This document shows, one piece after another, positions 2,106-43,413 of a stretch of DNA of 43,867 bases. Location: NCBI RefSeq assembly GCF_029978005.1, contig NZ_JARKOZ010000185.1:1-43867 (forward strand), read 5' to 3'. Each line of letters begins with the position of its first letter. The stretch's first letter is position 1. This DNA comes from Solidesulfovibrio sp. (GTDB taxonomy: Bacteria > Desulfobacterota > Desulfovibrionia > Desulfovibrionales > Desulfovibrionaceae). Below the pieces are notes generated by a model. That model was given only the letters and a program-made list of their open reading frames with translations. It made no database searches and was not told the origin of the DNA. Both the position numbers and the translations under genes were made by a program.

Positions 2106-3506
2106 CTACCAGAGGCCGAGGAACTTCCACCAGAAGGGTCCGGTTCCGGCCCAGGTCACGATGTGCAGGATCGAGGTGAGAAAGCCGATGCGCCACCAGG
2201 TGGGCAGATCGACGAAGCCCGCCCCGTAGAGGATGGGGCCGGGGCCGGCGCTGTAGTGGGTGAGCGAGTAGCACAGGCAGCCGCCGTAGGCCAAAAGCAG
2301 GGCCGACAGGTAGCCCGGCGCGCCGAGGCTCACGGCCACGGCCAGGAAGGCCGCGTACATGGCGGCCACGTGGGCGGTCATGCTGGCGAAGCCGTACTGG
2401 GAATAGATGTAGAGCACGAGCAAAAGGCCCAAGGCCACGGGCCAGCCCAGGCCGGCCATGGAGGCGGCCACGGTCTTGGCGAACCAGGGGATGAAGCCCT
2501 TGGAGGAGAGCTGGCCGGCCAGGCCGACGAGCACGCCCATCCAGACCACGGTGTCCCAGGCGCCGTTTTCATTGAGCACGTCCTTCCAGTCCAGGACCTT
2601 GCCGATGAGCATGATGGACACGGCGATGCAGCCGACGACCGTGGGGTCCATCTTGGTCACCGGGCCGGAGCACCACAGGAGCAGGGCCAGGATGAAGACC
2701 CCGAGCAGGATGAGTTCGGGCCGGGAGATGGGGCCCATCTTGATCAGCTCGTCCCGGGCCAGGGCCTTGACCTCCGGGGAATGCTTCATTTCCGGCGGAT
2801 AGATCTTGTAGACGAAGTACGGCACGGTGATCATGCCGATGATGCCCGGGACCAGGGCGGCAAGGGTCCACATGCCCCAGGAGATGTTGATGCCGGCGGT
2901 CTTCATGGCCAGCTCGGTGGCCAGGGGGTTGCCGGTCATGGCGGTCATGAACAGGGCCGAAAGCACGCCGTCGACCTGGTAGTAGCTCATGATGAGGAAG
3001 GCCCCGCACCGGCGCGCCGTGGGCCCGGGCTCGGACCCGAGGACCGAGATGACGCTGCGCAGGATCGGGTAGATGACGCCGCCGGCCCGGGCGGTGGAGG
3101 ACGGCGTGGCCGGGGCCACCACCAGGCCGCTCAGGGTGAAGGCGTAGGCGACCTTGAGGGGGCTGTCGCCGATGGCCCGCAGGATGAGGTAGGCGATGCG
3201 CCGGCCAAGCCCGGTCTTGATGAAGCCGCGCGAGAAGAAGAAGGCCGCGGCGATGAGCCAGATGGACCCCGAGGCGAAGCCGCCCAGGGCCTCGCCCACC
3301 TTGAGGGTACCGGTGAGCATGGTGACGGTCAGGCCGAGGAAGGCCACGGCGCCGATGGGCAGCGGGGCCACGATGAAGCCGACGATGATGGCCACCATGA
3401 GCGCGAAGATGTGCCAGGCCTGCTGGGTGAGGCCCTGGGGCACGGGCAGGAACCATAGGACGAGCCCGATGGCGATGGGAATCGCCGCACGTCTGAGCGA
3501 TTGCAT
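2106..3506 (-). CDS. DASS-family anion transporter (CitT/DiT1 clade)
   Basis: A 466-residue inner-membrane protein of the divalent anion:Na+ symporter family. It has about 11-12 hydrophobic helices and the two family hairpin signatures: APATPSSTARAGG near residue 135 and a second around YSQYGFASMTAH near 370. Near the C-terminus is LTHYSAGPGPILYGAGF, typical of the 2-oxoglutarate/malate, citrate/succinate and tartrate (TtdT) antiporters. The substrate is probably a di- or tricarboxylate, or a sulfonated or thiol analogue of one, but it cannot be read from sequence. The start at 3506 has GGAGGAAG 5 nt upstream. It is the first gene after the -24/-12 promoter at 3666-3681 and is followed by the rhodanese, suggesting import of a compound whose sulfur the rhodanese handles. 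That functional link is inference. Confidence 0.88.
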   Translation of the reverse strand: MQSLRRAAIPIAIGLVLWFLPVPQGLTQQAWHIFALMVAIIVGFIVAPLPIGAVAFLGLTVTMLTGTLKVGEALGGFASGSIWLIAAAFFFSRGFIKTGLGRRIAYLILRAIGDSPLKVAYAFTLSGLVVAPATPSSTARAGGVIYPILRSVISVLGSEPGPTARRCGAFLIMSYYQVDGVLSALFMTAMTGNPLATELAMKTAGINISWGMWTLAALVPGIIGMITVPYFVYKIYPPEMKHSPEVKALARDELIKMGPISRPELILLGVFILALLLWCSGPVTKMDPTVVGCIAVSIMLIGKVLDWKDVLNENGAWDTVVWMGVLVGLAGQLSSKGFIPWFAKTVAASMAGLGWPVALGLLLVLYIYSQYGFASMTAHVAAMYAAFLAVAVSLGAPGYLSALLLAYGGCLCYSLTHYSAGPGPILYGAGFVDLPTWWRIGFLTSILHIVTWAGTGPFWWKFLGLW

Positions 3507-3665
3507 GAGACTTCCTCCACGTGTTTGTCGCCGGCCGCTCCCTGGGGAGCGTGGCCGCGCCGGGGGCGCCTTCCCGGGGCGGCGTGACGCCGGCCGTTGG
3601 CCGGGGCGGCCTGGCGCGACAGCTGGCGTCGCGGCGGCCGTCCTCGGCTCCGACAGGCAGACATT

Positions 3666-3796: not shown

Positions 3797-5707
<1,911 letters not shown>

Positions 5708-13193: not shown

Positions 13194-15272
<2,079 letters not shown>

Positions 15273-16023: not shown

Positions 16024-18690
16024 ATGGCCGCTGATCCCGAACGCCGCCCCGACCCGGACCGGCTCCTGGAATACGTCCAGCGCGAGGAGGACAAAAAGCG
16101 CGGCGGCCGGCTGCGCATCTTCCTCGGCATGGCCCCGGGCGTCGGCAAGACCTATTCCATGCTCGAGGCGGCCCGCCTCAAGCAGGCCGAGGGCCTGGAC
16201 GTGCTCGTGGGCGTGGTCGAGACCCACGGCCGGGCCGAGACCGAGGCCCTGCTCGAAGGCCTCGCCATCCTGCCGCGCCGCGCCATCGCCTACCACGGCC
16301 ACGACCTGGCCGAGTTCGACCTGGACGCGGCCCTGGCCCGCCGGCCACAGCTGCTCCTGGTGGACGAGCTGGCCCACACCAACGCCCCGGGCTCGCGCCA
16401 TGGCAAGCGCTGGAAGGACGTGGCGGAACTGCTGGACAACGGCATCGACGTCTGGAGCACGCTCAACGTGCAGCACCTGGAGAGCCTGCGCGACGTGGTG
16501 GCGCAGATCACCGGCGTCAAGGTGCGCGAGGCCGTGCCGGACACCCTGCTCGAACAGGCCGAATCGGTGGTGCTGGTCGATCTGCCCCCCGACGACCTGC
16601 GCCAGCGCCTCAAGGAGGGCAAGGTCTACCTGCCCCGGCAGGCCGACTGGGCCTCAACCAACTTCTTCCGCCAGGGCAACCTCATGGCCCTGCGGGAGCT
16701 GGCCCTGCGGGCCACGGCCCAGCGCGCCAACACCGAAGTCCTGGTCTACCGCCACGGCCGGTCCATCCGGACCACCTGGCCCACTTCGGAGCGCATCCTG
16801 GTCTGCGTGGGCCCGTCGCCGAGTTCGGCCAGGCTGGTGCGGGCGGCCAAGCGCCTGGCCTCGGAACTGCACGCCCCCTGGCTGGCCCTGTCCATCCAGG
16901 CCGACCTGCCGCCCCAGGCCCGGGACAGCGCCCTGGGGCATCTGCGCCTGGCCGAGGAGCTCGGCGCGGAAACCTTCGTCATCTCCGGCCAGAACGTGGC
17001 CGGGGAGATCGTGGCCTTCGCCCGGCAGCAAAACGTCACCCGGATCGTGGTGGGCAAGCCCGTGCGCCGACGGCTGCGGGACTACGTTCTCGGCAGCCCC
17101 GTGGACCGGCTGATCCGGGAGTCCGAGGAGATCGACGTCCACGTCATCCGGGGCGACGCCGGCGAGGCCGTGCCCGCGCCCGCCGCCAAAAGGCCCCTGC
17201 CCGCGCCGCGCTGGCGGGGCTACCTGGCGGCCACGGGCGTCCTGGCCCTAAGCACCGGGCTTTGCGTCTCCATCTTCCCGGTCCTCGACCTGGCCAACCT
17301 CATCATGGTCTACATGCTCGGCGTCATGGCCACAGCCATCTGGCTGAGTCGCGGCGCGGCCGTCTTCGCCTCGGTCATGAGCGTGGTGGCCTTCGACTTC
17401 TTTTTCGTGCCGCCGCGCTTCAGCTTCGCCGTGTCCGACGTGCGCCACCTCATCACCTTCCTGGTCATGTTCCTGGTGGCCATGGTCATGAGCTCCATGG
17501 CCGCCAAGCTCAAGCGCCAGGCCGATGCCGCCGTCAGCGCCGGCCGGCAGAGCGCGGCCCTGGCGGCGCTGGCCCGGGAGCTCGTGGCCACGCGCGGCAC
17601 GGACAACCTCCTGGCCGTGGCCAAGCGCCACCTGGAGGACGTCTTCAAGGTCGGCGTCGTCTTCCTCCTGCCGGACGCATCGTCCGCGCTCCTGGTCAAG
17701 GCCAAGACCCCGGGAACGCCGGCCCTGCACGGCAAGGAGCTCGGCATGGCCCAGTGGGTGCTGACCAACGGCAAGCCGGCCGGCTGCGGCACGCAGACCC
17801 TGCCCGACTCGGAGACGCTTTTCCAGCCGCTCAAAGGCGCCGGCGGCGTGGTCGGGGTGGTGGCCCTGGAGGCCGGCCGGCCCGAGTCCGGCGCGCAACT
17901 GGCCTTTCCCGACCGGCAGCGGCTCCTGGAGGCCTTCCTGGCCCAGATCGCCCAGGCCCTGGAAGTGGACCGCCTGGAGGAGGCGACCCAGTCCACGCTG
18001 GTGGCCATGGAATCGGAAAAGCTCAAGTCCGGCCTGCTCTCCTCGGTGACCCACGACTTCCAGACGCCGCTGGCGGCCATTTCCGGTTCGGCGGAAGCCA
18101 TCATGGTGCTGGGCGACGACGCCGCGCCCGGGGCGGTGCGCGGCCTGGCCGAGAACATCCGGGGCGAGGCCGAACGCCTCAGCCGCCTGGTGGACAACCT
18201 CCTGCGCATGGCCAGGCTCGAGTCCGGCAAGTTCAAGCCCAACTTCCAGCCCGTGCCCCTGGAGGAGATCGTGGGCGCGGCCCTGTCCAGGCTCGGGCCC
18301 AGGCTGGAAGGCCGCTCCGTCCGGGTCGACCTGCCGGCCGACCTGCCGCTTTTGCGCGTGGACGAGGTGCTCATGGAGCAGCTGTGCGTCAACCTGCTGG
18401 AAAACGCGGCCAAGCACACCCCGGCCGGCACGGCGGTGACCATTTCCGCCAGGCGCGACAAGGACCGTGTGCTCCTTCGCGTGGAGGATCAAGGGGAGGG
18501 CCTGCCGCCCGAGGAACTGGAACGCATTTTCGAGCGCTTCTACCGGGTGCGCCGGGGGACCGGAGCCGACGGCTACGGCCTTGGGCTGGCCCTGTGCCGC
18601 CTCATCGCCAAGGTGCACGGCGGCGCGATCACGGCGACCAACGCCCCGGGCGGCGGGTTGCGGCTGGACTTGACAATTCCGGTCCGTTGA
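16024..18690 (+). CDS. kdpD: KdpD, osmosensitive K+ sensor histidine kinase
   Basis: An 888-residue membrane sensor with the standard architecture. The N-terminal KdpD cytoplasmic domain has Walker A GMAPGVGKTYSM near residue 38 and the VDELAHTNAPGSRH motif. A USP-like fold follows (about 255-375), then a four-helix DUF4118 membrane block (about 400-500) and a GAF-like linker. The kinase core has phospho-acceptor H677 in SVTHDFQTPL, an N-box (LLENAAKHTP) and a G-box (GEGLPPEELERIFERFYR; GYGLGLAL). It senses potassium limitation and phosphorylates KdpE. GGAGG lies 9 nt before the ATG. A 147-nt gap with a strong hairpin separates it from kdpC, so stoichiometry is probably kept low. Confidence 0.96.
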   Translation: MAADPERRPDPDRLLEYVQREEDKKRGGRLRIFLGMAPGVGKTYSMLEAARLKQAEGLDVLVGVVETHGRAETEALLEGLAILPRRAIAYHGHDLAEFDLDAALARRPQLLLVDELAHTNAPGSRHGKRWKDVAELLDNGIDVWSTLNVQHLESLRDVVAQITGVKVREAVPDTLLEQAESVVLVDLPPDDLRQRLKEGKVYLPRQADWASTNFFRQGNLMALRELALRATAQRANTEVLVYRHGRSIRTTWPTSERILVCVGPSPSSARLVRAAKRLASELHAPWLALSIQADLPPQARDSALGHLRLAEELGAETFVISGQNVAGEIVAFARQQNVTRIVVGKPVRRRLRDYVLGSPVDRLIRESEEIDVHVIRGDAGEAVPAPAAKRPLPAPRWRGYLAATGVLALSTGLCVSIFPVLDLANLIMVYMLGVMATAIWLSRGAAVFASVMSVVAFDFFFVPPRFSFAVSDVRHLITFLVMFLVAMVMSSMAAKLKRQADAAVSAGRQSAALAALARELVATRGTDNLLAVAKRHLEDVFKVGVVFLLPDASSALLVKAKTPGTPALHGKELGMAQWVLTNGKPAGCGTQTLPDSETLFQPLKGAGGVVGVVALEAGRPESGAQLAFPDRQRLLEAFLAQIAQALEVDRLEEATQSTLVAMESEKLKSGLLSSVTHDFQTPLAAISGSAEAIMVLGDDAAPGAVRGLAENIRGEAERLSRLVDNLLRMARLESGKFKPNFQPVPLEEIVGAALSRLGPRLEGRSVRVDLPADLPLLRVDEVLMEQLCVNLLENAAKHTPAGTAVTISARRDKDRVLLRVEDQGEGLPPEELERIFERFYRVRRGTGADGYGLGLALCRLIAKVHGGAITATNAPGGGLRLDLTIPVR

Positions 18691-37051: not shown

Positions 37052-37190
37052 GGGGGTGAACCCCGGGCCGGGTGAGGAGGCGCGGCAGGGCGTCCCGTCC
37101 GGCGGCCCCTTGCCCGCCCCCGAGGAGACGTTCTCCCGGGCCCTGGCGGCCGCCTTCCCCCATGGTGCCGGCAATGCCCGTACCTGCCGG

Positions 37191-37232
37191 AAAAAGAAAA
37201 AGGGCCTCGCGGATCGTCTCCGTAAGGCCCTT
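37191..37232 (-). terminator. Intrinsic terminator of the tRNA-fMet gene
   Basis: AAGGGCCT (37200-37207) pairs with AGGCCCTT (37225-37232). On the minus strand the stem is followed by TTTTTCTTTTT. It lies 10 nt beyond the CCA end of the tRNA fragment, the normal place for a tRNA terminator, which shows that this side of the junction is the original chromosome. Confidence 0.85.
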
Positions 37233-37241
37233 GAACTTCCT

Positions 37242-37295
37242 TGGTTGCGGGGGTGGGATTTGAACCCACGATCTTCGGGTTATGAGCCCGATGAG
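37242..37295 (-). tRNA. Initiator tRNA-fMet(CAT), 3' fragment at the integration junction
   Basis: Minus-strand bases 37295-37242 match the last two thirds of an initiator tRNA. They show the anticodon stem-loop TCGGG-CTCATAA-CCCGA with three consecutive G:C pairs, T-arm GTGGG-TTCAAAT-CCCAC, acceptor 3' strand CCCCGCA with A72, and an encoded ACCA. The expected acceptor 5' strand and D-arm (CGCGGGG with a normal D-loop) are absent; the upstream bases (GTTGGGTGTCAA) cannot pair correctly. The gene is therefore truncated by the element to the right, and this fragment is the displaced att copy. The functional gene should be rebuilt at the element's far end or exist elsewhere. Confidence 0.8.
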
Positions 37296-37370
37296 TTGAC
37301 ACCCAACCCCCATAAATATAGGTAATTCCTAGAAGCTGTTTTGGCAAGTGGTTGCTTTCATAGGGCTTTC

Positions 37371-37479: not shown

Positions 37480-38781
37480 ATGGCGCAAAAATGGGAACCG
37501 TTTTCAGGGGTTTCGGCTCTTTTTTATCGAGATTACGGCCAGGACGGCAAGACGTGGATGTTTCGGCAGATGGTCAACGGAACCCGCGTAACTGACTATT
37601 TGGGAGCGATGAGCCAGGAGCGGGCCGTTGTTATCGTCGCGACTCTTCGCGAAAACCGGAAATTGAAAGTCGGGCCACAAACTTGGGCCGAGATGGAAGG
37701 AACGGCCCAGGAAGAGGCCAAAGTTGAAAAAATCAAAGAAGAAAAAGAGCGGAAGAGGATTTTAGCCGAAGAAGAATTTGCTAAGGCAAACACAATTGAA
37801 AATTACTGGAAAAATGTTTACTGGCCGGCAAGGCAAAAAGAAGGATCGGCGCATAATAATAAATCGATTTTAGGCATTTTTGAAAATTGGATTTGTCCAG
37901 TCGTTGGAAAAATTCCACTTCAAGAATTGACATATTTAGATGTTAATAAAGTGCTAAATATCGCGAGGGATGTAGGCATTTCTCAAAAAACTCAAAAAAA
38001 TATTTATGTCACGTTGCAAACGCTTTGGAACGATGCCAAGCAATTTCATTCCGTAAAACGAAACATGGAACTTCCCATTTTTCCAGGAAAAGGGATCAAA
38101 AAGGATCGTCTTAAAATCAATAACAAAAAGAACTGTTTTTTGGACACAGACGAGGCCAAGCTTTTACTTGATACACTCAAAAATTGGCGTGAATTTTATA
38201 AACAGCACAAAATGGCAATCAAAGGCCAAAGCGGAGATGACGCTTACGGCATGGCCGTTGTAGCGTTATTTTCCGGTTTGCGTTTTGGGGACATCGCTTC
38301 ATTAACTTGGGGCGAAGTTGCGAATAAAGAGCAGGCATATGCCAGAAACCCAAAAGGGGGAAAAGCATACGGAATCCATCTTAATGTTGCAATCATCCGT
38401 GAAATGTTGGCAGAAAGAAGAAAAAGGTTATCAGATGAGCCAAAGCCAGACGATTTAGTTTTTAAAAATGCCCGTGGCGAAAAATGGGTTTCAGTTCCAC
38501 AAATTTATAAAACGGTTATTGAAAAGTTGGGTTTTAACGAAGTGCCGCGTAGATATAAAAATCCGGCTCAAAAAATTGACTTCCACGCCTTGCGGCACAC
38601 GTTCGCGTCTTGGCTGGCGATGCAAAGCGTGTCGTTATACACAATCATGAAGCTTATGGGTCATCAAAGTCTAGCAATGACGGAACGTTACGCAGACCTT
38701 GACCCGACCCTGACCAAGGCCTGTGTTGAAAAAATGTATTGGAATTTCAGTGACTTGACAGGAAAAGAAGAGGGCGAATAA
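37480..38781 (+). CDS. int: Tyrosine-family site-specific integrase
   Basis: A 433-residue phage-type integrase. The N-terminal arm-binding region (about 1-65) is followed by a charged coiled linker (about 75-102), a SAM-like core-binding domain (about 105-205) and a catalytic domain (about 215-425). Catalytic residues are visible: R268 in SGLRFGDIASL, K295 in the beta-hairpin, H369 and R372 in HALRHTFASW, H395 in LMGHQSLAM and nucleophile Y404 in TERYADL. It would cut and join att sites in the tRNA-fMet gene. It lies next to the att fragment and reads away from it. Composition is much more AT-rich than the chromosome to the left. AAGGAG lies about 14 nt before the ATG, slightly far. Confidence 0.95.
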   Translation: MAQKWEPFSGVSALFYRDYGQDGKTWMFRQMVNGTRVTDYLGAMSQERAVVIVATLRENRKLKVGPQTWAEMEGTAQEEAKVEKIKEEKERKRILAEEEFAKANTIENYWKNVYWPARQKEGSAHNNKSILGIFENWICPVVGKIPLQELTYLDVNKVLNIARDVGISQKTQKNIYVTLQTLWNDAKQFHSVKRNMELPIFPGKGIKKDRLKINNKKNCFLDTDEAKLLLDTLKNWREFYKQHKMAIKGQSGDDAYGMAVVALFSGLRFGDIASLTWGEVANKEQAYARNPKGGKAYGIHLNVAIIREMLAERRKRLSDEPKPDDLVFKNARGEKWVSVPQIYKTVIEKLGFNEVPRRYKNPAQKIDFHALRHTFASWLAMQSVSLYTIMKLMGHQSLAMTERYADLDPTLTKACVEKMYWNFSDLTGKEEGE

Positions 38782-39017: not shown

Positions 39018-39132
39018 AAAAGTCCCGGAAAGCTATGGTCAAGCCCTGTTCTCTTTAGAGAACAGCGCGCTTGCCTGTGCTTTTCGGGACTTTTGCATTT
39101 GTCCCGCCGCACAGGCACCCATTCGAGGGTGC
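39018..39132 (+). promoter_or_regulatory. Leader with mutually exclusive hairpins and a masked ribosome-binding site
   Basis: Hairpin A pairs 39018-39032 with 39080-39094 (14 of 15), enclosing CAAGC/GCTTG and a perfect 9-bp stem (39046-39054 with 39057-39065). Hairpin B pairs CCTGTGC (39074) with GCACAGG (39109) and CGGGAC (39085) with GTCCCG (39101). A and B compete for CGGGAC. Hairpin C pairs GCACCC (39115-39120) with GGGTGC (39127-39132) and covers the ribosome-binding site of the HTH gene starting at 39134. B and C touch at base 39115. This is the geometry of a regulated leader RNA. Confidence 0.65.
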
Positions 39133-39133
39133 T

Positions 39134-39517
39134 ATGCACGACGCCACTTCTGCTATTTCCGCCGCTACCGCTGCTTCCGCTGCTCTTATTAAGGACTTGC
39201 GACGCACTCTTAAAGTCAGGACTCTTCCTTTAACGCTCGGCGTCGATCAAATCGCGTTGTCGCTGGGCGTCCATGCACAAACTGTTAGATCGCATGTCAA
39301 AGCCGGAACGTTGCCGTTTGAACGTATTTCGATCACTGACGGCCGGAACTGGCGATTTCGGACCGCCGACTTGCTCGTATATCTACTCAACGACACGACT
39401 CTAGCCCCCACCACGCCCACCACTGCTACGCCGCCAGCCCCGCGCAAGGGGCCTGGGCGGCGCGTCGGCTCGCAAAACAAAAAGACCAAAGCCCAGGCCT
39501 CGGGTGAGGGGGCGTAA
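39134..39517 (+). CDS. AlpA-like helix-turn-helix protein of the element
   Basis: A 127-residue DNA-binding protein. The central part has a MerR/excisionase-type helix-turn-helix (about 35-65: LTLGVDQIALSLGVHAQTVRSHV), followed by RISITDGRNWRFRTADLLVYL, the usual wing and recognition end of AlpA-like regulators. An alanine-rich N-terminus and a Pro/Thr/Lys-rich basic tail flank it. I use the ATG at 39134, with GAGG close upstream; a TTG at 39071 lies inside the structured leader. In satellites and phages such proteins act as activators of integrase or replication genes, or as excisionases. It precedes the primase-like gene by one nucleotide (TAA-C-ATG), so they are one operon. Confidence 0.75.
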   Translation: MHDATSAISAATAASAALIKDLRRTLKVRTLPLTLGVDQIALSLGVHAQTVRSHVKAGTLPFERISITDGRNWRFRTADLLVYLLNDTTLAPTTPTTATPPAPRKGPGRRVGSQNKKTKAQASGEGA

Positions 39518-39518
39518 C

Positions 39519-40760
39519 ATGCGCCAGCCCTACCAACATACCGGCGCGTGGTCCACCTACCCGCTTACAAAACAGATTTCCCGAAATGAAAACGGCGAAA
39601 TCGTCTCTATTCCTGCCCGTACTATTACTCACGCCCGCGCAAAACGCGTTGAAACCCCAAATGCGTTTGCATTTGCGGAAATTTTAACCCGTTGCAATCC
39701 ATTTCATGTTTTTTGGTATGGCGTTTCAGAACAGTCTTTGGTGACAGTTGTTACAAAAGACGCGTTAAAACGCATTTCCCCGGCGCACAGAGATGAATAC
39801 GCCGCCCGCACACAAAAAGATTTTCCCTTTATCAAAAACACGCCGGGCTGGCTCTGTTTCGATTATGACCCGCAGGACGGCGTTACCCCGCTTTGTCATG
39901 ACGAATTACGCGAAAGGCTTATTATTGTATGTCCAGAGATCAAAAATGCACCGATGGCGTTTGCTCACTCTACGTCGTCTTATATCTACTATCTCGACGA
40001 TAATGGCGTTGAGCAGTGTTATAGAGGTGACAAAGGAAAAAGAATTTATGTCGGACTTGCTGACATGTCCGATATTAAACGATTTGGAACTGATATTTTT
40101 AACGCTTTTTGGGATAAAGGTTGGGGTTGGTTTGAATTTTCCACAACAGGTTCAAAATTAGCGAAAACTTATTATGATCGTGCAATGCGGTCATCGCACC
40201 AGCCTGATTTTGTGGGCGGCGCATATTGCACAAACGGGGTTTATCAACGGCGACCTGATCCAATTGTGGTCAATGGCGATAATCCGCCATTTGAATCACG
40301 CGCATGGAAATATGAAAGGAAGGTGGTTGAAAAGGCTTCCAAAGCGACAAAGGGCGCTAAAGCAGAAGTCAAGAAAGAAGAAAACACCGATTGTGACGCA
40401 AAAAATGCGGTTTTAACAATCGAAGAAAGCAAGTTGACGCGTGATACAGTGATCCATTTTGCAGAAGGAGGAGAAGAAACGCTAGGGAGAATTATGTTAA
40501 ATCGTCAAAAATGTCATGGACAAATTGTATTTGATCCGTGTCCTACAAAAGGCAAACCCGTACACAAGGCCATTTTGCATGTCAACTCGACGAATCCTTG
40601 CATCTGGACTTGGGCACATGGAGGCGTTCGGTATCTGATTCCGCTTTCGTGGCGGAATCCGCCGCCAAAATCAGTGCGCGGGTTTGGGGCGAAGCTGCGG
40701 CCAGCATCAAAGCCGGCCCAGGCCCCGGTAGAGGAACCGGAGCCGGAAGGGGTCGAGTAG
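39519..40760 (+). CDS. Archaeo-eukaryotic-primase-like replication protein
   Basis: A 413-residue protein, probably a primase of the AEP/PrimPol superfamily. The hydrophobic-DxD metal motif appears as WLCFDYDPQDG (D115, D117). An AHSTSSYIYYLD segment follows (about 148-160), as does the later GWGWFEFSTTGSKLAKTYYDR block (about 201-221), a pattern I associate with primases paired with DUF3987 helicases in prophages and satellites. The other catalytic residues are less certain by eye. The C-terminal quarter is a lysine-rich linker and a small beta-rich domain. It follows the HTH gene by one nucleotide and precedes the helicase by 120 nt. It would prime synthesis at the element's own origin. Codon use is AT-rich like the integrase. 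Confidence 0.62.
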   Translation: MRQPYQHTGAWSTYPLTKQISRNENGEIVSIPARTITHARAKRVETPNAFAFAEILTRCNPFHVFWYGVSEQSLVTVVTKDALKRISPAHRDEYAARTQKDFPFIKNTPGWLCFDYDPQDGVTPLCHDELRERLIIVCPEIKNAPMAFAHSTSSYIYYLDDNGVEQCYRGDKGKRIYVGLADMSDIKRFGTDIFNAFWDKGWGWFEFSTTGSKLAKTYYDRAMRSSHQPDFVGGAYCTNGVYQRRPDPIVVNGDNPPFESRAWKYERKVVEKASKATKGAKAEVKKEENTDCDAKNAVLTIEESKLTRDTVIHFAEGGEETLGRIMLNRQKCHGQIVFDPCPTKGKPVHKAILHVNSTNPCIWTWAHGGVRYLIPLSWRNPPPKSVRGFGAKLRPASKPAQAPVEEPEPEGVE

Positions 40761-40880: not shown

Positions 40881-42821
40881 ATGGCTATGAAGCCCCGCCA
40901 AGATAATTTTGATGACACACCCGCGCCAGCGCCCGAGAGCGTGAACGTTAACAACAATCCTGAAAACCTGGAAAGAATTGTCCGGGCTGGTGTTGAAAAC
41001 GTCAAAAAGGGAGCTAAAGGCGACCAGAATCGGACCTTAAACGTTACGTGTTACTGGATCGGTCGCGTTTTGGGCGAAGCAGCGTTGCAAGATCATGTCG
41101 AAAAGGCGCTGTGTGATGCGGGCGTGGAAATCGGTATTAATCAGCAAGAAGCGGCCAGAACTGCCCGTTCCGGCCTCCGTGGTGGAGCCGGGGCCGGCGC
41201 GCCGGGCAACGAAGAGACGTTGCCGCAATTTTTGTGCGAAATCGATGCCCCGGGGAACTCCGAAGAAGATGAATCGCTGGCGATTGATGATTTTGTCGGA
41301 AAATTGCCGCCGATGCCGCTCGAAGTATTCCCGGAAAAGGCGCGTGAAGCGATTGCCGCTATTGCTGCCAGTAAAGACGTTCCACAAGACATGGTCGGGG
41401 CATTTTTCCTTTCTTTGTGCGCTGCTTGTATCGGCCGAGCAAGAACCGCCCGATATTCTAAAACATGGCAAGAACCTGGAAATCTGTATTTTCTTGTCGC
41501 GGCTGCAACTGGCACAGGTAAAAGCCATACGATGAAATTCATTTTTAGCGAACTTGCTCGAATGGAAGCGATTGTCAAAATGCAGTACCGCGAAGATCGG
41601 CGCAAGTACGAAGAGGATATGGTCGTTTTTCGCAAGCGTAGTTCGGGGAAAGAGGGAAGCAAAGGAAAAAAAAGCGATGCGCCGACTTGTTCGGCCAATA
41701 CAGGAAAAAAGGATGAGATGCCGAAACGGCCGCCTAACATCCAATATGTTCTGACCGACACAACGATGGAAGCAGCCATGGACCTTCTTTTTGACAATCC
41801 TCGCGGGCTGTGCTGGCTTATTGACGAGTTTCACAACTTCATTCCGGGTTTAGATCGATATTCAGCAAAAGGCACCAGTGAAGGGAAGCGCCGTCTTTTG
41901 TCAACCTGGGATGGAGCGACGATTTGCGTCAACAGAAAGGCCAAGGATGGCGTTTCAAATGAATTGTATATCGAAAACGCCACGTTTTCGATCTGCGGGT
42001 GTGTCCAGCCACATTTGCTGCCCGAAATTTTTACATATGATGATTTGCACCAGGGCTTGCCGGAACGGTTCTTGTTCGTCAATTGTCAGCCGCAGCCGCC
42101 CGCACCAGACCCCAGGCCGGAAATTCCGGAATGGGTCGAAAAATATTTGACCCGGATCACTCGCGTTATGATGGGTTTTGCCATGGAAGAGGACCAGGAC
42201 GGACGTCTGCGCGGCTTAGCGATTGATCTCGACGACGCGGCTCGGAAGGAATGGAATGCGTTTAGCAACACAATTAAAAACAAAACGTATGGTTTAACTA
42301 TTCATGGCTTTGCAATGAAAATGCGTGGCATAACCTTGCGGCTGGCGTTGTTGCTGCATTGTTTGCGACATGCTGACGATGGAGACGTGACAGACGGGGA
42401 AATCACTTTTGGCGACATGACCAACGCCGTGGCCCTGGCCGACTACTTTTTCGCCCAAGCGCAGAAAATGAATACATATATTCCTGACAAAAAGGGGAAT
42501 TCGCGATCCGCAACAAACGACACTCATGCATCCCGTATTGCCGAATTGTTGCTGAAGCACGTTCATGAAATTGGACAACTTGAAGGGAAAATCGAAAACA
42601 AGGTGCTTCAAGGATGGTTTAAAAAGGCGCGGCTTAAAATCAATCAAAACCAATTACGCGAGGCGTTTACCACACTAAATATCGAAGCCGGGCGCGAAAA
42701 AAGTCGTCGATACCGGCTCATAACAACGGATGTTTTGGACATTTGCTCCAAAATGAGTTCCCAAATCAAGGGCGTGTTCGAAGAAGACGATTTTGACGCA
42801 GTGGAAGTGGACGAGAGGTGA
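40881..42821 (+). CDS. DUF3987 primase-helicase of the element
   Basis: A 646-residue replication protein. An N-terminal helical module (about 28-105) carries the NRTLNVTCYWIGRVLGE and QQEAARTARSGLRGG pattern common to the small domain after AEP primases. The DUF3987 ATPase follows, with Walker A ATGTGKSH (about 209-216), a charged low-complexity insert (about 235-285) and Walker B CWLIDEFHNF (about 311-320). A C-terminal winged-helix-like region (about 545-620) may bind DNA. The protein probably unwinds the origin and works with the primase-like protein upstream. Its stop codon lies within the left iteron cluster of the candidate origin, tying gene and origin together. GAGGG lies 8 nt before the ATG. 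Confidence 0.85.
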   Translation: MAMKPRQDNFDDTPAPAPESVNVNNNPENLERIVRAGVENVKKGAKGDQNRTLNVTCYWIGRVLGEAALQDHVEKALCDAGVEIGINQQEAARTARSGLRGGAGAGAPGNEETLPQFLCEIDAPGNSEEDESLAIDDFVGKLPPMPLEVFPEKAREAIAAIAASKDVPQDMVGAFFLSLCAACIGRARTARYSKTWQEPGNLYFLVAAATGTGKSHTMKFIFSELARMEAIVKMQYREDRRKYEEDMVVFRKRSSGKEGSKGKKSDAPTCSANTGKKDEMPKRPPNIQYVLTDTTMEAAMDLLFDNPRGLCWLIDEFHNFIPGLDRYSAKGTSEGKRRLLSTWDGATICVNRKAKDGVSNELYIENATFSICGCVQPHLLPEIFTYDDLHQGLPERFLFVNCQPQPPAPDPRPEIPEWVEKYLTRITRVMMGFAMEEDQDGRLRGLAIDLDDAARKEWNAFSNTIKNKTYGLTIHGFAMKMRGITLRLALLLHCLRHADDGDVTDGEITFGDMTNAVALADYFFAQAQKMNTYIPDKKGNSRSATNDTHASRIAELLLKHVHEIGQLEGKIENKVLQGWFKKARLKINQNQLREAFTTLNIEAGREKSRRYRLITTDVLDICSKMSSQIKGVFEEDDFDAVEVDER

Positions 42822-43096
42822 CAGCGATGACAGCCGATGACACAGCCATTGTCATCTCTAAGGCCCCGGAATCCGGGGCCTTTTCCTTTGATGACGGAGA
42901 TGACAGCGGTACCTAAGGGAGAGGGGGAGAAGCGCGGGGGGAATTTAAGAATTTATCATAATATCAGGAGGATAGAAAAAGTCTTAAAACCCCTATTAAG
43001 GAAGCACTGTCATCGTTGTCACCAGGGATTAAATTCAATAATTTCTATTGGTTATTGGTGACAATGGCTGTGTCATCGGCTGTCATCGGTGTCACC
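42817..43096. other. Candidate replication origin: inverted iteron clusters around an AT-rich core
   Basis: A 40-bp segment (42817-42856) recurs in inverted orientation at 43057-43096 with 38 of 40 bases equal. Each copy holds four GRTGACA boxes at 9-14-nt steps. Further boxes lie between (42899; 43008 and 43017 inverted). The core 42941-43000 has about 27% GC by hand count. Iterons on both sides of an AT-rich block beside the helicase gene are typical of satellite and plasmid origins. A terminator for the helicase transcript is embedded. A small open frame across this region is not credible as a gene. Confidence 0.7.
42860..42888 (+). terminator. Intrinsic terminator of the replication operon
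   Basis: AAGGCCCCGG (42860-42869) pairs perfectly with CCGGGGCCTT (42873-42882) around a 3-nt loop and is followed by TTCCTTT. It ends the HTH-primase-helicase transcript inside the candidate origin. Confidence 0.85.
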
Positions 43097-43413
43097 CTTT
43101 AAAAAAACTTCGAAAATTTAGGTAGTTGCTTTATTCGGCGTCCCTCGGAGACTCGGGACGCCGATCGGGGAGGCCCCACCCCCCCACAGGACCTCCTCCC
43201 GACTGATCCCTCCCCCGTAATTGCCCGTGCGATCGGGCCGAGTCTTCGAGGCCCGGGGGATAGCACCCACCAACCCCTTCCCCCACCCCTTCAAATTGCC
43301 CGCCACAGTGACCTGCCCGGGCCTTTTCGGACCATCTGAAACTTGAGAAGGGGGCTCTCGACGACAAAGAGCCGATACAGACTCCATCTTCAAGGAATTT
43401 ATCATGTTTGCTT
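43097..43413. other. Gene-free C-rich stretch with a perfect hairpin
   Basis: No credible gene. CGGCGTCCC (43136-43144) and GGGACGCCG (43155-43163) form a 9-bp stem with a 10-nt loop. From about 43165 to 43320 the plus strand is rich in C runs and GC-rich, unlike the origin beside it. I see no second tRNA copy, so I cannot call it the element end. Confidence 0.45.

Follow-up and report, generated by a model that had tools for sequence, protein, structure and literature searches.

The DNA analyzed here is a stretch of 43,867 nucleotides of Solidesulfovibrio sp. (contig NZ_JARKOZ010000185.1), called the window below, and towards its right-hand end it carries an integrated element with the following junctions and genes:

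37242-37314, minus strand: tRNA-Met gene (ARAGORN), left junction of the integrated element
37480-38781, plus strand: tyrosine integrase (PF00589, E 8.1e-21)
39071-39517, plus strand: HTH_17 (AlpA/MerR-like) small DNA-binding protein (PF12728, E 5e-8; phrog_66 excisionase/regulator, 2.8e-6)
39504-40760, plus strand: primase-like protein (phrog_16593 DNA primase, E 1.9e-19)
40881-42821, plus strand: DUF3987 helicase, the proposed initiator (PF13148, E 6.3e-55; phrog_2373 DNA helicase, 7.6e-40)
43309-43371: repeated, insertion-sequence-like stretch at the broken right edge; the similarity to the copy of the element in the related genome G009 stops at 43308

The junction of the element lies within tRNA-Met, and a new 5' half for this tRNA comes from the element (37189-37320 in the window, 3410-3620 in locus L025 and 4190-4400 in locus L181), the usual site of integration into tRNA genes being the 3' end. 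Four such tRNA stretches lie within 90 kb in G009, which suggests stacked islands. At the far end of intact relatives of the element about 107 bp, comprising the 3' part of tRNA-Met and its trailer, are repeated. The window copy was considered truncated because it ends at 43309 in the repeated stretch; being truncated there, it may no longer be mobile. By our judgement, 43309-43371 would be an insertion-sequence-like end, and a similar sequence is present on contig C206 (locus L186), where two inverted copies together cover about 560 bp. A universal stress protein gene comes after the repeat array in the window.

This array is a mirror-symmetric set of six plus six 7-bp boxes at 42817-43096, arranged around an AT-richer middle and starting at the stop codon of the helicase gene:

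42817-42856, plus strand: left outer block, boxes at 42817+, 42826+, 42836+ and 42850-
42860-42882, plus strand: terminator-like hairpin between the left outer and left inner units
42890-42906, plus strand: left inner unit, GATGACG followed by GATGACA
42907-43006: core between the inner units, containing AT-rich 42945-42992 and CCCCTATTAAGGA at 42990-43002
43007-43023, minus strand: right inner unit, two minus-strand boxes in mirror register with the left inner unit
43024-43056: AT-rich spacer (79% A+T) from the right inner to the right outer unit
43057-43096, minus strand: right outer block, boxes at 43057+, 43071-, 43081- and 43090-

The first-pass annotation had described the outer blocks as inverted 40-bp repeats, the left one overlapping the helicase stop, and this was borne out exactly: the coordinates are precise, the blocks are identical at 38/40 positions when inverted and 200 bp lie between them, and the TGA (42819-42821) falls inside the first left box, which places the site directly 3' of the proposed initiator gene. 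Its count of four GRTGACA boxes per block was also recovered (left + + + -, right + - - -) but was incomplete, as it had missed the two inner two-box units, which are 13/17 identical and lie in exactly the same mirror register as the outer blocks when the region is folded on its centre; the array in total holds eleven exact GRTGACA boxes and one GATGACG. The AT-rich core that it had proposed was borne out in part: A+T is 57% in the middle 100 bp of the array, 73% at 42945-42992 and 79% in the spacer at 43024-43056, against 34.6% for the window. The mirrored blocks are not due to chance: the inverted-repeat score of the window was 35, compared with a maximum of 15 and a mean of 12.9 in 30 first-order resampled windows. 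Moreover, GRTGACANNGRTGACA occurs four times in the 4.8-Mb genome, three of them in the array, and the same pattern read backwards does not occur in it at all. The hairpin count of the window (one found, 1.5 expected in shuffles) is weak alone.

Comparison with related genomes separated the plan of the array from the word that it is written in. The helicase was searched in 149 related genomes, including that of the window, and 19 matched. The G009 helicase is identical over the protein; this copy adds nothing independent, because 6,120 bp are shared with the window at 99.7%. The helicase of Solidesulfovibrio aerotolerans DSM 16695 (genome G006, locus L025) is 85% identical over the matched part and 91% in the core, and its array follows the same 6+6 plan, with 40-bp arms matching at 38/40 positions and inner two-box units in mirror register. 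Its box, however, is CGTGACA instead of GRTGACA, its outer blocks are oriented ++-- instead of +++-, the gap from outer to inner units is 34 bp on both sides as compared to 33 bp on both sides in the window, and the core between the inner units measures 117 bp as compared to 100 bp. What is kept in the relative is the plan of the array and not the box word. Furthermore, the symmetry is carried by the boxes, since in both copies the spacers between units are largely not mirror images. Two side observations were made on these copies: CCCCTATTAAGGA is common to both cores despite the different boxes (window 42990-43002; L025 7866-7878) and may be a candidate melting or protein site, and a decayed-looking outer-plus-inner unit, recognized by eye at 7560-7660 of L025, lies directly after the S. 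aerotolerans helicase stop and upstream of the intact array, possibly as a trace of one-arm turnover. A pattern scan of genome contigs returned three stretches, namely S. aerotolerans, used here, L171, which gave nothing, and L170; scans of viral contigs and a protein scan of genome contigs found no relatives.

The two arrays bear on the idea that the site acts as an origin by forming a large stem-loop or cruciform, such as has been put forward for the crenarchaeal plasmid pRN1, with the repeated words being incidental. According to the parts of PMC4234260 considered, pRN1 depends on a stem-loop of 100 nt that lies 3' of its primase-helicase replication gene, and the symmetric structure is kept as the sequence drifts, which resembles the situation described here; short arrays of three boxes facing three could form hairpins too. 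In pRN1, unlike here, the structure is read as a stem-loop recognized by the SF3 initiator of an archaeal plasmid (PMC4234260). The recurring units of the DUF3987 arrays, by contrast, are direct-repeat boxes, mostly 9 bp apart, the orientation of boxes in the outer blocks differs between the window and S. aerotolerans with the mirror being kept, and the spacers just mentioned would remain largely unpaired in a stem. Additionally, the terminator-like hairpin between the arms in the window speaks against an RNA stem formed from the helicase transcript; a similar hairpin is present after the stop of the S. aerotolerans helicase. We consider a stem-loop origin improbable.

Integrative mobilizable elements combine an integrase, att repeats at a tRNA gene and a relaxase with the lack of a full mating apparatus. 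The two intact relatives show an integrase, tRNA repeats, a relaxase and a coupling-like ATPase: the copies between tRNA-Met repeats measure about 33 kb (G006) and about 55 kb (G009), and both encode a MobA/VirD2-type relaxase and a TrwB-like, coupling-protein-like ATPase, with a NikA-like protein found in the G006 copy, whose right neighbour resembles yidC (by eye, a candidate). Phage-inducible chromosomal islands (PICIs) are small and carry no conjugation genes, and an assignment of the element as a PICI phage satellite was rejected in view of the size of the intact relatives and their relaxase and TrwB-like genes. Likewise, it was not assigned to the PICMI satellites: integrase, AlpA (PF12728, the model also used in PMC10803314) and DUF3987 are present, but Fis had no match in the four element ORFs scanned. 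These ORFs gave no match to a Rep_3/RepA-type initiator either, and an iteron plasmid origin of that type was dropped. The likeness to PICMI satellites of Vibrionaceae lies in the integrase, AlpA and DUF3987 or DUF5906 primase listed among their defining genes in the part of PMC10803314 considered, in which the word iteron does not appear; they differ as small phage satellites with a Fis regulator from the relaxase-bearing relatives described here.

The same relatives were informative on whether the array might serve the element as the arm region of its attachment site, as an oriT or in partition. Its position near the right edge of what remains of the element in the window would fit such a role. 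In the intact relatives, however, its distance to the left tRNA repeat is about 4 and 5.5 kb, that to the right repeat about 29 and 49 kb and that to the relaxase gene about 6 and 7 kb, and the arrays of plasmids and phages described below accompany the helicase gene in widely differing surroundings. An attachment, transfer or partition function is accordingly the least probable of the explanations considered, and very unlikely.

The array as a putative replication origin was followed further in a survey of DUF3987 genes in the bacterial family, in which PF13148 is present in 90/288 genomes. The loci comprised 100 of the listed PF13148 matches together with G009, G006 and the window, and the stop codon could be placed in 101/103. 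A strict detector, which required two 7-bp boxes at a spacing of 8-11 bp and, no more than 450 bp away, the same box as an inverted pair, with one mismatch overall, found mirrored arrays between -400 and +700 of the DUF3987 stop in 33/101 loci and elsewhere in 9/101, as compared to 0/303 first-order resampled loci. Near the stop no such array was detected in 68/101 loci and in 49 of the 70 loci of a non-redundant set (cores at most 70% identical); this set had arrays near the stop in 21 loci and elsewhere in four, which corresponds to an approximately 29-fold higher density per base near the stop. In a simpler test by exact 7-mer clusters, all 16 loci with a score of at least 10 have the cluster at -306 to +554 of the stop (10/10 without near-duplicates), and among weaker non-redundant clusters the numbers near the stop were 18/26 for a score of at least 7, 15/20 for 8 and 11/13 for 9. 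Many other DUF3987 genes do carry a similar mirrored array close to their 3' end. Neighbouring same-strand boxes of the non-redundant set were exactly 9 bp apart in 70/87 cases, the seed search having allowed 8-11 bp. Three boxes facing three is a common short form, and some loci hold about 12 boxes.

The prediction that GRTGACA clusters would be found beside DUF3987 homologues in other genomes therefore held for the architecture and failed for the literal box. The words found in the survey include ATTCGCA, ATGGACA, ATACGCA, TGCTAAT, CACAATA, ACGCCAC, GTTGTAC, CCGTCGG, GTCTCAC, TGTTGGA and GTCTGCA; GRTGACA as a family signature was discarded on this account, and so was a common GACA core, which many of the words lack. 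Five of the nine loci with arrays elsewhere (L085, L089, L090, L091 and L096) form one related group, in which mirrored ATGGACA arrays precede the stop by about 2.2 kb and lie upstream of a shorter DUF3987 gene. In several loci (L119, L124, L127, L128 and L130) the boxes lie within the coding sequence of the C-terminal part of the helicase, and DNA site and protein tail would therefore evolve there under a double constraint.

Outside the family, a tblastn search with the window helicase led to 13 plasmid and four phage records, all 17 of which were examined. Strict arrays at or near the 3' end of a DUF3987-like gene were found in the closed plasmids pSR11 (Salinibacter), p3 (Priestia), pANA03 (Anabaena) and plasmid6 (Scytonema) and in 3/4 phage records; in p3 the gene spans the record start, which makes the distance to the array inexact. 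The top 7-mer cluster lies at this position in the fourth phage, Javan191 (modest score of 7.2), and in two Bacteroidales plasmids, and the second-ranked cluster in two Nostoc plasmids (L178 and L192), in which ACTGACA was seen in two clusters, mid-gene and near the end of the DUF3987 gene. Neither an array nor a first- or second-ranked cluster was present at the DUF3987-like 3' end in 5/17 records (Sulfitobacter, two Bacteroides, Alicyclobacillus and Chroococcidiopsis); the Sulfitobacter record has its own replication initiator gene, in Alicyclobacillus the DUF3987 gene is annotated in two pieces, and in Chroococcidiopsis a cluster at the 3' end ranks only third. pANA03 (L175) has a second mirrored site (13297-13339) and strong clusters at 13211-13849, away from the DUF3987 gene, and plasmid6 (L176) an equal-score cluster at 16604-16807, likewise away from it; these are possibly partition or second-origin sites. 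pSR11 is a circle of 11.5 kb; its array starts some 20 bases past the DUF3987 stop and is the only strict mirrored site, and it is not one of the five top 7-mer clusters of the plasmid.

pSR11 is also relevant to the question of whether the boxes are operators or excision-factor sites of the upstream-encoded HTH_17/AlpA-like protein. Such a gene is present in the window, AlpA-like ORFs were seen by eye upstream of several iteron loci, and the HTH_17 protein, too, differs between the window and S. aerotolerans (68% identity). pSR11, however, has the array, yet a scan of its 16 annotated genes gave no match to HTH_17, MerR_1 or AlpA (ten scanned to E 1 and six to E 0.1); it does encode another small HTH-like protein and ribbon-helix-helix proteins. 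Moreover, the arrays are located where the helicase gene ends and, in the intact relatives, not beside int or att. An upstream ORF was detected by an AlpA motif in only 16/38 iteron loci, some of these hits being clearly spurious, and this motif is too loose to count as evidence. Recognition of the boxes by the HTH_17 protein is therefore unlikely, to a degree scarcely different from that of the stem-loop and marginally greater.

Recognition of the boxes by the helicase itself is favoured by the gene content of the loci. Among eight iteron-bearing DUF3987 proteins scanned, three have a TOPRIM domain, three a Prim-Pol domain and two neither, and the S. aerotolerans copy has no primase-like ORF between the HTH and helicase genes; since primase domains vary and none precedes that helicase, DUF3987 is the common factor and the primase is not. 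Box similarity was additionally compared pairwise with the similarity of the C-terminal part or of the core of the helicase by rank correlation (rho) and partial rho. In the 51 pairs whose core identity reached 0.5 or more, rho between the box and the C-terminal part was 0.77, with partial values of 0.49 for the C-terminal part given the core and 0.12 for the core. For the 134 pairs with a core identity of at least 0.42 the partial values were 0.29 for the C-terminal part, a value reached by 3/2000 permutations, and 0.21 for the core, whereas over all 666 pairs box similarity tracked the core (partial 0.27) over the C-terminal part (0.12). Individual pairs point in both directions: L119 and L127 have 87% of the core in common and different boxes, L119 and L124 have the same box with 61% identity in the core and 73% in the C-terminal part, and L124 and L127 have 71% of the C-terminal part in common and different boxes. 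Among closer pairs the box word thus appears to track the C-terminal part better than the ATPase core, with exceptions, and the correlation is suggestive only, because the pairs are not independent.

Structure prediction and profile searches contributed little to this point. AlphaFold models of the whole helicase (pLDDT 36.6) and of its C-terminal domain (pLDDT 54.6, all helical, no wing) were too poor to judge the presence of a winged helix, Pfam and PDB profile searches of the helicase returned no known DNA-binding domain (sole PDB match E 0.098), Pfam gave no helpful match for five C-terminal fragments, and the PDB profile search with the primase-like protein found no match. The parts of PMC5862659 considered describe DUF3987 as a predicted helicase of mobile elements and state that a C-terminal winged helix, with a possible role in recognizing origins, is present in most members of the primase family containing it.

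The layout proposed in the first-pass annotation, iterons on both sides of a melting region as in staphylococcal pathogenicity islands (SaPIs) and related satellites, is in accordance with published descriptions in its 3' helicase location, two flanking sets and AT-rich middle (PMC6092414, PMC7581432, as far as the parts considered go). The C-terminal domain of SaPI Rep recognizes iterons directly downstream of its own gene, apparently as two hexamers (PMC7581432), and in Gram-negative PICIs two iteron sets are described as always flanking an AT-rich region 3' of rep, an organization said in the same part of that paper to occur in no other known bacterial replicon (PMC6092414). Common to these systems and the window are the position of the origin, putative in the window, immediately 3' of the helicase gene and the two iteron sets around an AT-rich stretch (PMC6092414, PMC7581432). 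In contrast, SaPI Reps are described as DUF927 or D5/Primase_Cterm helicases, whereas the proposed window initiator belongs to the DUF3987 family, which was the only Pfam match above the cut-off, with no DUF927 or D5 match. The DUF3987 arrays also differ in being mirrored, in their mostly 9-bp period, in that they can lie inside coding sequence, and in their presence on mobilizable islands, plasmids and phages. By analogy, the window array would appear to function in the manner of a PICI origin, from which it is set apart by its helicase family and by the type of element. Binding of repeats downstream of the gene by a helicase C-terminal domain is also described for the putative origin of SCCmec Cch2, which differs in its helicase family, in having only three AAGTG direct repeats and in that binding was unaffected by deletion of inverted repeats (PMC7581432, in part). 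Vibrio PLE is likewise a satellite replicon with iterons and its own initiator, but there the initiator is a RepA_N protein for which, in the part of PMC7145576 considered, helicase or primase activity is not predicted. Within the open-licence PMC literature no report of DUF3987 together with iterons was found, and reports elsewhere are possible.

Taken together, we propose, with a probability of roughly 0.8, that 42817-43096 is the self-recognized putative replication origin of an integrative mobilizable element, with the rep-ori layout of SaPIs and PICIs and a helicase of another family. Following this, the DUF3987 protein would bind the boxes of its own element, most likely via its C-terminal domain and with roughly one subunit per box, the mirrored binding would assemble two opposed helicase rings, these would melt the AT-rich stretch between them, and a primase would then prime synthesis. 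With the gene moving together with its site, and with a box word that varies from element to element, the protein of each element would mainly drive replication of that element. A wider generalization, to which we give even odds, is that DUF3987 helicases are self-loading initiators across phyla, with an origin of mirrored 7-bp words in a 9-bp period at the 3' end of their own gene on which two opposed rings are templated, and with a lineage-private word that is rewritten jointly in both arms as the C-terminal part changes. That such origins sometimes lie inside the coding sequence belongs to the same generalization and carries the same balanced odds.

Pfam continues to list DUF3987 as a domain of unknown function, despite its presence in those 90/288 genomes of the family and the relatives on plasmids and phages from several phyla. 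If the proposed reading is true, the origins of many mobile elements would be readable from sequence alone, and the plan described as special to phage-inducible islands would be wider. Moreover, the natural helicase C-termini with their differing words would offer a ready experiment on how initiator specificity changes, and the same natural set would address how mirrored sites load two helicases.
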